A stretch of 64,000 bases of DNA from Acidobacteriota bacterium (GTDB taxonomy: Bacteria > Acidobacteriota > Thermoanaerobaculia > Gp7-AA8): assembly GCA_021781455.1 (NCBI GenBank), contig JAJXWV010000033.1, positions 62,001 through 126,000 on the forward strand. The letters are read 5' to 3'. This document shows, piece after piece, positions 51,870 to 56,499 of this stretch. The notes below the pieces were generated by a model. It did no database searches and was not told where the DNA came from. It saw only the letters and a program-made list of their open reading frames with translations. Position numbers and translations under genes: made by a program. Numbering within the stretch: the stretch's first letter is position 1; each line of letters opens with the position of its first letter.

Positions 51870-52553
51870 TCACCGGATCTGCTTGGTCACCACGCGGCCC
51901 GGCGGCGTGTCGTGCGTGAACATCTCCAGCGCGGCGCGGACGACCTTGCGATGGAAGGCGCGATCGCCGGCGCGACCCACCACGCGACCGATGGCGGTGC
52001 CGTCCCAGGTCATGGCCCGGGGCGGACGGACCGACTCCGTCGCGGCCGGCGACGCCGAGATGATCAGGGTCGGGATTCCGCGAGCCTCGATCTCACGGGC
52101 CAGGTTCGCGATCGAGCGGTGGCACGTCTCCGGACATCCCGCGGTGAGCAGGACCAGTTTGGCCTTCGAGCGCTCGACCTTGTCGGCGATCTCAGGGAAG
52201 GTCGTCTCGTACAGCTCGCGCAGGCGTGTCGTAAACCCGTAGCTGAAGTTGTTGTCGTTGACCCCGCCGATGAACCCTTCCCCGGCGAGCTCGCGCAGCG
52301 TGTCGATCGGAAAGACGATGTTCGGGTCCGCGTCTGCTTCGCCGTGGTCGTAATGATGGTGGGCAATGCGGAGCGACGACGCCTCGGTGCTCCCGGGAAT
52401 CAGGCGATAGGTGATGTCGCCGGGATCTTCGGTCGGAAAGGGCTCGTGTTCCGGCAGAAAGACACCGGCGGCGGAGACGAGTGCCACGACGGCCGAGGCC
52501 AGATCGCGATCGTACGGCGTGAACGGAACACAGCGGCGGGCGATGGTCAACAT
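51870..52553 (-). CDS. glycine/sarcosine/betaine/D-proline reductase B-like protein (cysteine form)
   Basis: This 227-residue protein belongs to the GrdB/PrdB selenoprotein-B family: SLRIAHHHYDHGEADADPNIVFPIDTLRELA near the middle, then LVLLTAGCPETCHRSIANLAREIEARGIPTLIIS. The position normally held by selenocysteine is Cys140 (TGT), paired with Cys144 in CPETC. It is half the length of clostridial GrdB and lacks its partner subunits, so it is unlikely to be a true amino-acid reductase. A thiol-redox role is plausible. It lies 140 bp downstream of the probable selenocysteine peroxiredoxin on the same strand. ATG 52553 is chosen because the sequence before it is a divergent-looking gap. Confidence 0.8.
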   Translation of the reverse strand: MLTIARRCVPFTPYDRDLASAVVALVSAAGVFLPEHEPFPTEDPGDITYRLIPGSTEASSLRIAHHHYDHGEADADPNIVFPIDTLRELAGEGFIGGVNDNNFSYGFTTRLRELYETTFPEIADKVERSKAKLVLLTAGCPETCHRSIANLAREIEARGIPTLIISASPAATESVRPPRAMTWDGTAIGRVVGRAGDRAFHRKVVRAALEMFTHDTPPGRVVTKQIR

Positions 52554-52693
52554 TGTTGGAAGTCTATCGCGAGCGGAGAGTCCGATCCGGTTACGCGGTT
52601 GCGCATGTTCCGGACAAGCACCGCGGAACTCGCAACCCCGCAGCCGCGCAACCGAAAAATACGGGCCCGTGGACGGCCCGTCTCCGCCGTGAC

Positions 52694-53203
52694 TCACTGA
52701 AGATCGCGAAGGACCTCGATCAACTGCGCGTTTTCGGGCGCCTCGCCGATGTCGTGTACGTCGATGTAGCGGACGATGCCCTGCTTATCGACGATCACGA
52801 TGGCGCGCTCGCAGATGCCCTTGTCCTCTTTCCAGACTCCGTACTTCTTCGAGACCTCTCCCTTCGGATGGAAGTCCGCAAGGAGCGGATATCTCGTGAT
52901 TCCCCCGATCGATTTCGCAAATGCTGTGTGACTCGGAACGCTGTCGACTGAAATGCCCACGACCTGGGCATCATACCGGTCGAAGTCGGCATACTCCGCT
53001 TCGTAGCCCGGCATTTGAACGGTTCACACCGGTGTCCAGTCGAGTGGATAGAAGACCAGGACGACGTTCTTCTTTCCCTTGACCTCACTGAGCCTGAACT
53101 TCTCGTCATTGCGGTGGCCCGGAAGCTCGAAATCGGGAGCCTTGTCTCCGACTTTGAGCGTCTGGGTGCGATCCGCAGTGGATGTTCGTCCGAAAGAAAC
53201 CAT
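52694..53203 (-). CDS. peroxiredoxin with selenocysteine (TGA) at the peroxidatic position
   Basis: Read through a single TGA, the minus strand from ATG 53203 to the TGA at 52694-52696 gives an uninterrupted 169-residue AhpC/TSA peroxiredoxin. The N-terminal part is [13 protein letters not shown]...[15 protein letters not shown]; then TGA (53024-53026, residue 60); then [24 protein letters not shown] and YPLLADFHP. In peroxiredoxins the residue after PxDxTPV is the catalytic Cys, so TGA stands exactly where Sec replaces Cys in known Prx selenoproteins. A GGGAG lies 8 nt before the ATG. A second Cys is in [11 protein letters not shown]. The alternative is a nonsense mutation; then only a 106-residue fragment from ATG 53014 would remain, without the active site. 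Confidence 0.88.
52953..53008 (-). promoter_or_regulatory. candidate SECIS hairpins downstream of the in-frame TGA
   Basis: Counting from the TGA, nucleotides 19-39 can fold as GGC-UAC / GUA-(U)-GCC with an 8-nt loop containing GG and one bulged U, at the usual distance for a bacterial SECIS. Nucleotides 56-74 form a perfect 7-bp hairpin (AUGCCCA/UGGGCAU) with loop GGUCG, but farther away than usual. Neither has been folded computationally. Confidence 0.4.
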
Positions 53204-53289
53204 GGATCGATCTCCCTTCGCCCCTCGAAATTACTTCGGCAGAGTCCACGTCCGCCGAGCGCGTGATTTTAGTGAAGACCAGCGGCCGG

Positions 53290-53690: not shown

Positions 53691-53758
53691 CGCCATGACC
53701 TAGCAATTGACGAGCCCGTCCGAAAGATTTGCGGCGGCAAGCGTGTTCTTCAGGAACC

Positions 53759-54640
53759 ATGGAACAACCGGATCGACTGATCCAGGGAATGGCCGGAACG
53801 GGCGATTTCCGGATCATCGCCGCCCAGACGACGCTGACCGTCGAGACCGCTCGCGAGATTCTCGACCTCGCTCCCGTCGCTGCGGACGCCCTTGGCCGTG
53901 CCCTGACGGGATCGCTTCTTCTGGCGCGGCTGCTCAACAAGGACGCTCGGAACCAGTACGTCACCCTTCGATTCGACGGTGACGGGCCGCTGGGCACGAT
54001 GATCGCCGAAGGCACGGTGGCCGGCGGCGCGCGCGGCTACGTAGCCAATCCGGTGCCGCCGGATCCGAGCCTCAAAGTCGGACAGGCCATCGGCCGGGGC
54101 ATGCTGACCGTGGTCCGCGGCATGCTGCCCGCGGGCAAGCCGTACACGTCACAGGTCACGCTCACCGGCAGCGGCGTAGCCCAGGAGCTCACGCGTTATC
54201 TGATGCGTTCCGAGCAGATCGCCTCGGCCGTCCTGCTGGGTGTCATGAACCGCCGCGACGGCGTGGCTGCGGCGGGCGGAATCGTCATCCAGGCTTTTCC
54301 GCATACCGAGGAAGCGGCCATTGCCGCGGTCGAAAAACGGATCCGGGAAGCGCCGCCACTGAGCACGCTTCTCGAGAAGCTGCCGATCGAGGACGTCGTG
54401 GCCCAGGTCCTCCGGGGAATGGACTACAAGCAGATCGATTCGAGCTTCGACGTGCCGCTGGAGTATCGCTGCTCGTGCAGCCGGGAACGCGCTCTTGCTC
54501 CGCTGGTTCTCTTCTCACGGGAGGAGCTGCAGGAAATGATCGACGAGGGCGGCTCCGAAGTGAAGTGCGAATTCTGCGGCCGCAGGTACACGTTCAGCCG
54601 CGAGGACCTGCTGACCCTGACCGCGACCCACGAGGCCTGA
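53759..54640 (+). CDS. hslO: redox-regulated chaperone Hsp33
   Basis: Hsp33 is a holdase activated by oxidation and unfolding. The 293-residue chain has the family's N-terminal domain (RALTGSLLLARLLNKDARNQYVTLRFDGDGPLG, then GYVANP) and the redox zinc centre near the C-terminus with CSC (about 241-243) and CEFC (about 274-277), the conserved CxC/CxxC set. ATG 53759 has AGGA just upstream. Its neighbour on the other strand is a peroxide-related gene group, which suits the oxidative-stress role but does not prove shared control. It is 41 bp before fabH. Confidence 0.96.
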   Translation: MEQPDRLIQGMAGTGDFRIIAAQTTLTVETAREILDLAPVAADALGRALTGSLLLARLLNKDARNQYVTLRFDGDGPLGTMIAEGTVAGGARGYVANPVPPDPSLKVGQAIGRGMLTVVRGMLPAGKPYTSQVTLTGSGVAQELTRYLMRSEQIASAVLLGVMNRRDGVAAAGGIVIQAFPHTEEAAIAAVEKRIREAPPLSTLLEKLPIEDVVAQVLRGMDYKQIDSSFDVPLEYRCSCSRERALAPLVLFSREELQEMIDEGGSEVKCEFCGRRYTFSREDLLTLTATHEA

Positions 54641-55750: not shown

Positions 55751-56212
55751 TCAGTCCGCCAGGTACTTCTCCATGAGCCGCGCGTTTTCACTCATCGCCC
55801 GGATCTCCACCCAATAGGCGCGGCCGTACATCACCAGGGTGGTGAAGGCCAGGATGAGGTGCATCCAGCGCGGCGTCTTGCCGAGAGCCACGCCGCCGCC
55901 GGTGATGAAGGTGACCATCAGGATGAGGATCGAGTACATGGCCGCGGGAAAGACGCGCGACTTGAAGACGCGCGTCCGCTGAACGACCGCCGCCTCGTCC
56001 GCCGCGCCTTTCACCTTCTCCTTGATCTCTTTTCCCGAGCCGATGAAGAAGAACATCGTCATCGATTGCGAGAACAGACCGACGAGCATCGTGACCAGCG
56101 CTGCCAGGACGTGCTGGGCCGCATGAGCCGGCGAGGCCAGAAAACCCATCGTGATCGTGGCGATGAGACCGGCGATCGTCAGCAGCGTCGTGATGAGGAG
56201 GAACTGGGCCAC
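55751..56212 (-). CDS. four-helix membrane protein, unknown function
   Basis: This 153-residue hydrophobic protein has four predicted transmembrane helices (about 3-25, 35-55, 88-108 and 112-135) with a charged loop GSGKEIKEKVKGAADEAAVVQRTR between the second and third. The start is GTG 56212; upstream sequence is the heptanucleotide array. I do not recognise a family. It is convergent with fabH, 10 bp apart. Confidence 0.75.
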   Translation of the reverse strand: MAQFLLITTLLTIAGLIATITMGFLASPAHAAQHVLAALVTMLVGLFSQSMTMFFFIGSGKEIKEKVKGAADEAAVVQRTRVFKSRVFPAAMYSILILMVTFITGGGVALGKTPRWMHLILAFTTLVMYGRAYWVEIRAMSENARLMEKYLAD

Positions 56213-56230
56213 GGCGGGATTATACGGACA

Positions 56231-56475
56231 GGACCGCAGACTGCAGACCGCAGACTGCAGACCGCAGACCGCAGACCGCAGACCGCAGACTGCAGACCGC
56301 AGACCGCAGACCGCAGACCGCAGACCGCAGACCGCAGACCGCAGACCGCAGACCGCAGACCGCAGAGGATTTCTTGCGGAGAGGTTCGATCTCGCAACAT
56401 CGAAAGGAATTGAGCGGCCGATTGCCACTTCGTTCCACTTCAAAGCGGCGATCTGCGGTCCGCGGTCTGCGGTCC
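56231..56475. repeat. heptanucleotide inverted array, family 3 (AGACCGC x19 / GCGGTCT x4)
   Basis: Nineteen unbroken 7-bp units (GGACCGC then AGACCGC, with AGACTGC three times) fill 56231-56363. After an 84-nt spacer, four units in the opposite orientation (GCGATCT, GCGGTCC, GCGGTCT, GCGGTCC) lie at 56448-56475. The arms are unequal in length. It occupies most of the gap between the membrane-protein gene and purM and must contain or adjoin both promoters. Confidence 0.97.
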
Positions 56476-56499
56476 ACACCTCTGCTACACTCCCGCGCC

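Follow-up and report, generated by a model that had tools for sequence, protein, structure and literature searches.

In the window, by which we mean the whole 64,000-nt stretch of DNA that was analysed, a minus-strand gene encodes a predicted peroxiredoxin with TGA at the codon for its peroxidatic residue, and a gene for a GrdB/PrdB-like protein follows it on the same strand (Table 1). Direct reading of the minus strand placed the start of the first gene at ATG 53203-53201, with FYPLDWTPV directly preceding the TGA at 53026-53024, and read-through of this codon gave a 169-residue product that begins with MVSFGRTS, ends with LRDLQ and contains a single inner TGA. The first-pass annotation had given these coordinates and a single frame on both sides of the TGA, correctly in every detail. 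It had also described the product as a full-length, undamaged peroxiredoxin, in agreement with the match of the read-through product to PF00578 (AhpC-TSA; 1e-39) over positions 1-124 of the 124 in the profile, and had warned that a gene caller would miss the enzyme. This was borne out, as the translation table 11 listing of ORFs held only a 106-aa ORF from ATG 53014 at this locus. Sec-peroxiredoxins are easily lost by gene callers, and such a fragment is all that would appear of this one.

Table 1. Features of the peroxiredoxin gene and its GrdB/PrdB-like neighbour (window positions)
Feature	Position	Strand	Remark
Predicted Sec-peroxiredoxin gene, AhpC/TSA family, AhpE-like, 169 aa	52694..53203	-	
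AGGGAG, ribosome-binding-like, 8 nt upstream of ATG 53203	53212..53217	-	read from the sequence
P53-T57 codons, conserved PxxxT of the active site	53033..53047	-	nearly invariant alignment columns
In-frame TGA, predicted selenocysteine 60, peroxidatic position of PxxxTxxU	53024..53026	-	
SECIS-like hairpin: outer stem, inner stem, apical loop AGUAUG	52973..53014	-	
C131 codon, possible resolving cysteine in nearest relatives only	52811..52813	-	N, S, A, P or T elsewhere
R133 codon, invariant active-site arginine	52805..52807	-	aligns with Arg of M. tuberculosis AhpE
Terminal TGA, true stop of the peroxiredoxin gene	52694..52696	-	
Terminator-like hairpin between peroxiredoxin and partner	52661..52681	-	one found; mean of 1.4 in shuffles
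Partner, GrdB/PrdB-like protein, 227 aa, Cys form, motif GCPETCHR	51870..52553	-	
Partner C140-C144 codons	52122..52136	-	Sec (TGA) at C140 in relatives that are not of the window's family

The inner TGA lies, as had been claimed, at the catalytic cysteine: it occupies the peroxidatic column of PxxxTxxC, where more distant homologues carry Cys. The homologue alignment that the first-pass annotation had proposed as a check gave either Cys or TGA in this same column. Each of the six closest orthologues (74-86% identity; the nearest named relative, at 86%, lies in a Thermoanaerobaculia MAG) contained exactly one TGA, always in this column. Approximately 20 further homologues carried TGA at the peroxidatic position, including forms of ~45-60% identity from elsewhere in Acidobacteriota, from Candidatus Eremiobacterota and from a Levilinea MAG, while TGC or TGT was found in Streptomyces, Desulfomonilaceae, Olivibacter and several Acidobacteriota, among others. 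The TGA column was inspected individually in the 30 fetched loci, and in the alignment of 30 homologues P53 and T57 were nearly invariant and position 60 and R133 invariant. Apparent extra TAA stops in two genomes (G373 and G279) lay outside the aligned gene, and an Acetoanaerobium match considered as a possible known Sec-peroxiredoxin proved to be a Cys enzyme. On a quick tree, the distribution of Sec and Cys forms needed six changes, compared with 20.7 in shuffles, and one Cys form (L140, from genome G026) was nested among the Sec forms.

This pattern bears on two other explanations of the locus. In a pseudogene the TGA would be a true nonsense mutation in a Cys codon, and after an error of sequencing or assembly an apparent one; a single substitution separates TGA from TGC or TGT, and the assembly is a 90-contig draft. 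The probability of this explanation is negligible, since it is already refuted by the conservation of the TGA, which recurs in six family genomes, each assembled separately, and in homologues from other orders and phyla. The first-pass annotation had likewise considered a random nonsense mutation unlikely, and the same TGA in all six nearest orthologues supports that judgement. In addition, substitutions on either side of the TGA were mostly synonymous, indicating purifying selection on both halves of the gene, and the Sec machinery of the genome is complete, as detailed below. The ATG found by the ORF caller three codons past the TGA would also suit a locus making two products, a 59-residue N-terminal peptide and a 106-residue protein from ATG 53014, with read-through only minor. 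This is very improbable, as that ATG encodes the Met of QMP within the catalytic helix and is replaced by Ile in several homologues, either half alone would be without part of the active site, and the two halves are conserved alike.

The genome (4.88 Mb, 100% complete) was searched for selA, selB, selD and tRNA-Sec, as the first-pass annotation had suggested, and all four were present: selA at 9.1e-119, SelB at 370 bits (cut-off 242), SelD at 355 bits (cut-off 125) and a tRNA-Sec with anticodon TCA at 71 bits (cut-off 47). A second tRNA-Sec-like match (L017) was assigned by ARAGORN as tRNA-Ser(TGA). The selD gene (L010; genome G000, contig C30, 12837-13775) carries TGA in the active-site motif GGUACKLG, which makes SelD itself a predicted selenoprotein in this genome. 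Two peroxiredoxin paralogues, L163 (C37:24178-24549) and L164 (C61:66309-66704), carry TGA at the peroxidatic position (motifs TPGUT and TGGUT), and a distant GrdB-like protein, L219 (C72:37474-38121), contains LVPVUPMCNQT; the WAxxUGC model found no member above its cut-off in the genome. Several genes with in-frame TGA could also be read as genome-wide reassignment of TGA to sense. The chance of this is minute, given that the peroxiredoxin gene itself ends in TGA, that the inner TGAs examined lie only at catalytic Cys positions, and that selA, selB, selD and tRNA-Sec(TCA) are all present. From the gene and its genomic setting, the locus almost certainly encodes a selenocysteine peroxiredoxin in which TGA codon 60 is read as Sec.

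Sec decoding is widespread in Acidobacteriota, for which four selenoproteins were counted in 2006 (PMC1794560): SelB was found in 256 of 396 genomes (about two thirds), including nearly all of those from the window's class. Among Acidobacteriota with a match to the TGA form, SelB was present in 35 of 36, compared with the 256 of 396 overall (Fisher p = 1.4e-6, with relatedness ignored), and the sole TGA-form genome without SelB is 72% complete.

The apical loop of the hairpin downstream of the TGA begins 28 nt past the UGA, and its inner stem contains a one-base bulge. When compared to controls that encode the same protein with shuffled codons, the hairpin was more stable in the Sec forms (mean z -1.26, 28 sequences) than in the Cys forms (mean z -0.07, 21 sequences; p = 2.5e-4). 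The window's own hairpin was only moderately stable by this measure (z -0.68), and that of the Cys-form peroxiredoxin of G026 was weak (z +0.84). RNAalifold found no consensus structure in the gapless Sec set, and the explicit two-stem structure was counted for covariation in its place. Across 26 Sec sequences, seven pairs of the two stems had changed on both sides, and the covariation score (0.256) exceeded the shuffled value (0.167; 0 of 500) and all slid versions of the structure. All five inner-stem pairs were kept in 46% of the Sec forms and in no Cys form. A generic bSECIS rule (4-bp upper stem, G in the first two loop bases, spacing of 16-37 nt; PMC13188914) was tried as a classifier of Sec and Cys forms and rejected, as Cys homologues passed it equally often (10/21, against 13/28 Sec forms). 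The loop AGUAUG and the 28-nt spacing of the window's hairpin fit this rule, but the hairpin fails a strict uninterrupted 4-bp stem because the bulge follows after 3 bp. A scan of the window against Rfam at the gathering threshold gave no matches, so it holds no catalogued SECIS or other RNA. The sequence-based checks proposed in the first-pass annotation all came out in its favour, the SECIS one through a covarying hairpin after the TGA that is specific to the Sec forms, while the generic rule on its own did not discriminate. The UGA at codon 60 would be decoded as Sec by the SelA, SelB, SelD and tRNA-Sec of the genome, probably aided by this hairpin, and the UGA at codon 170 would end translation.

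An AlphaFold2 model of the peroxiredoxin (pLDDT 89) was closest among solved folds to M. tuberculosis AhpE (1xxu, 4x0x; Z 26 over 153 residues, rmsd 1.3, ~36% identity), compared with Z 23-25 for other peroxiredoxin structures, and AhpE also matched in sequence (E 1.9e-18). The two enzymes share a single peroxidatic residue and the aligned active-site Arg; AhpE uses Cys, whereas the clade of the window's enzyme consists mainly of Sec forms in the tree drawn. The window's enzyme has one cysteine besides position 60, C131, which the nearest relatives share (GxCERA). In the rest of the Sec clade this residue is N, S, A, P or T, so that a resolving cysteine is not a general feature. Known bacterial Sec-peroxiredoxins of the TxxU type, including PrxU of Eubacterium acidaminophilum, likewise combine the AhpC/TSA fold and Sec in PxxxTxxU with bacterial Sec machinery (PMC13188914, PMC1794560). 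The window's enzyme differs from them in lacking a conserved second cysteine, in its linked GrdB/PrdB-like gene and in its score with the PrxU equivalog model NF040737, which at 81 bits against a cut-off of 270 means that it is not a PrxU equivalog. The enzyme is probably an AhpE-like peroxiredoxin of the single-selenocysteine type, and it adds to the known TxxU class of Sec-peroxiredoxins (PMC1794560, PMC13188914).

By analogy with the peroxiredoxin family, the selenolate of Sec60, positioned by P53, T57 and R133, would attack the peroxide and be converted to a selenenic acid. Because the Sec clade has no conserved second cysteine, an external thiol or selenol probably reduces oxidised Sec60, as happens in single-cysteine peroxiredoxins; in the closest relatives alone, C131 may resolve Sec60 internally.

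The partner protein scored above the cut-off of the GrdB superfamily model PF07355 (35.8 bits, cut-off 22) and below that of the PrdB equivalog model TIGR04483 (9e-38; 130 bits, cut-off 300). Its model (m5c6a793bddf4) had a pLDDT of 92.5, and solved structures offered neither a match in sequence at E 0.001 nor one by Foldseek below E 0.001 (best Foldseek E 0.04). Within the window's family the motif is LTAGCPETCHR, in the Cys form, and outside the family its first position is normally TGA, as in LTGGUPNVCHR or LTGGUPLCHRT. In G026 both proteins, the peroxiredoxin (L140) and the partner (L185), are Cys forms, with SelB kept. PrdB and GrdB, of D-proline and glycine reductase, have a Sec-x-x-C type motif that is also found in the partner's relatives; the partner differs from PrdB in its score below the equivalog cut-off, in its motif (GGUPx(V)CHR or GCPETCHR) and in its position adjoining a peroxiredoxin. 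An excess of hairpin stability downstream of the partner's TGA was sought in the Sec forms and was not found. Most Sec partners (L180-L184, L187, L207, L208, L213-L216) carry ACGGTCGT ~15-20 nt after the TGA, and Cys forms do not. In the Sec-form partners ACGGTCGT allows a GGUC apical loop, and this element may be the SECIS of the partner, despite the lack of a folding-energy excess.

The partner was surveyed in 396 Acidobacteriota genomes and in 149 genomes of the phylum of genome G411. Members of this GrdB-like subfamily stood beside a peroxiredoxin in 19 of the 20 cases examined, on the same strand and 19-288 nt apart, in two phyla (for one locus, L216, the peroxiredoxin alignment was only partial). 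The peroxiredoxin comes first in Acidobacteriota and the GrdB-like gene comes first in the phylum of G411. The partner also follows the peroxiredoxin in the other loci of the window's family, at 68-85% identity, with only a fragment of it aligned in G015 (L028). More distant GrdB-like Sec proteins (LVPVUPVCHQS) were unlinked to a peroxiredoxin. Both genes were present and unlinked in G279, no partner match was obtained for L141 of G273, and Sec-peroxiredoxins without a partner occurred in several Eremiobacterota, Acidobacteriaceae and Levilinea genomes.

A Prx-type gene beside a second selenoprotein gene is an arrangement already known (PMC2398784), the neighbour here being GrdB/PrdB-like instead. 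Selenoprotein operons listed in a 2026 review are grdA-grdB, prdB-prdC, frhA-frhD-hdrA, Prx/SELENOW-like, Prx-like/AhpD-like, SAO and Tso; a pair of Prx and PrdB-like genes is absent from the operon lists of PMC2398784 and PMC13188914, and no description of it was found in the open-licence literature, which does not prove novelty. The enzyme itself is of a known kind; what is less expected is its conserved pairing with the GrdB/PrdB-like gene, which the first-pass annotation had not noticed.

Between the two genes lies a terminator-like hairpin, and strong inverted repeats occupy the same intergenic place in other loci (L025-L030, L136 and L137), with a sequence that differs between genomes and a T-run in only some. 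These repeats may be a terminator, an attenuator or an RNA-stabilising element, and with the terminator-like hairpin in between the two genes may or may not share a transcript. The hairpin, the occurrence of the peroxiredoxin alone in some genomes and the separation of the genes in G279 would each suit a pairing that is an accident of shared descent with no functional meaning. We consider this unlikely, though worth some weight, as the pair is found in two phyla with opposite gene order and the surrounding genes, judged by eye, differ among the loci read. The peroxiredoxin and the linked partner are instead probably linked in function, as their conserved proximity suggests.

The nature of that link is more tentative. 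Enzymes of the PrdB/GrdB family carry out reductive cleavage with a Sec nucleophile, and for C. sticklandii PrdB a selenide-sulphide between the Sec and a Cys has been proposed, which PrdC would then reduce (PMC3091704). The partner is a candidate external reductant of Sec60, since its C(U)-x(2-3)-C motif could take up the oxidising equivalent as a disulphide or selenenylsulphide. That it is the reductant seems rather doubtful, and the Sec-peroxiredoxin genomes without a partner mean that it cannot be the sole one. Alternatively, the partner would not be a reductant and would perform its own reductive chemistry on a small molecule, with the peroxiredoxin shielding its selenol or thiol from peroxide. 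The reductive cleavage known for PrdB/GrdB enzymes, the conservation of the pair and the Cys form of both proteins in G026 suit this arrangement, which is conceivable at somewhat less than an even chance; against it, inspection by eye of the flanks read beside the pair revealed no PrdA-like or other substrate-binding subunit, and the partner scores far below the PrdB cut-off. More broadly, the pair may be a two-component system for reducing peroxide, originally with both components as selenoproteins, and the GrdB/PrdB-like protein would then be either the dedicated reductant or the protected enzyme; we regard this proposal as possible without favouring it.

In marine metagenomes, PrdB-like selenoproteins rank with the most frequent ones, with 42 in the Sargasso Sea set (PMC1088965) and 235 in GOS (PMC2398784), and carry the label proline reductase. 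If the two-component proposal is true, it would supply a function for a branch of these little-characterised proteins outside the amino-acid-fermenting clostridia. This conserved pair, present in two phyla and in either gene order, connects a Sec-peroxiredoxin with a PrdB-like protein and suggests from gene context that at least one PrdB-like branch works together with a peroxidase.

Other genes and repeats were observed in the surroundings of the pair. In the window, hslO, encoding the redox-activated chaperone Hsp33, lies at 53729-54640 on the opposite (plus) strand, beyond a short lipoprotein-like ORF, and an Hsp33 signature was seen near the pair in two other loci of the family (L056 and L058). 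In G042 (L226), the pair is near Fur/PerR-like and AhpC-like ORFs, named by eye. At ~56180-56480 of the window, between gene neighbours, the ORF list contains the short direct repeats GLRSAVCGLRSAVCG and QTADRRPQTADRR.
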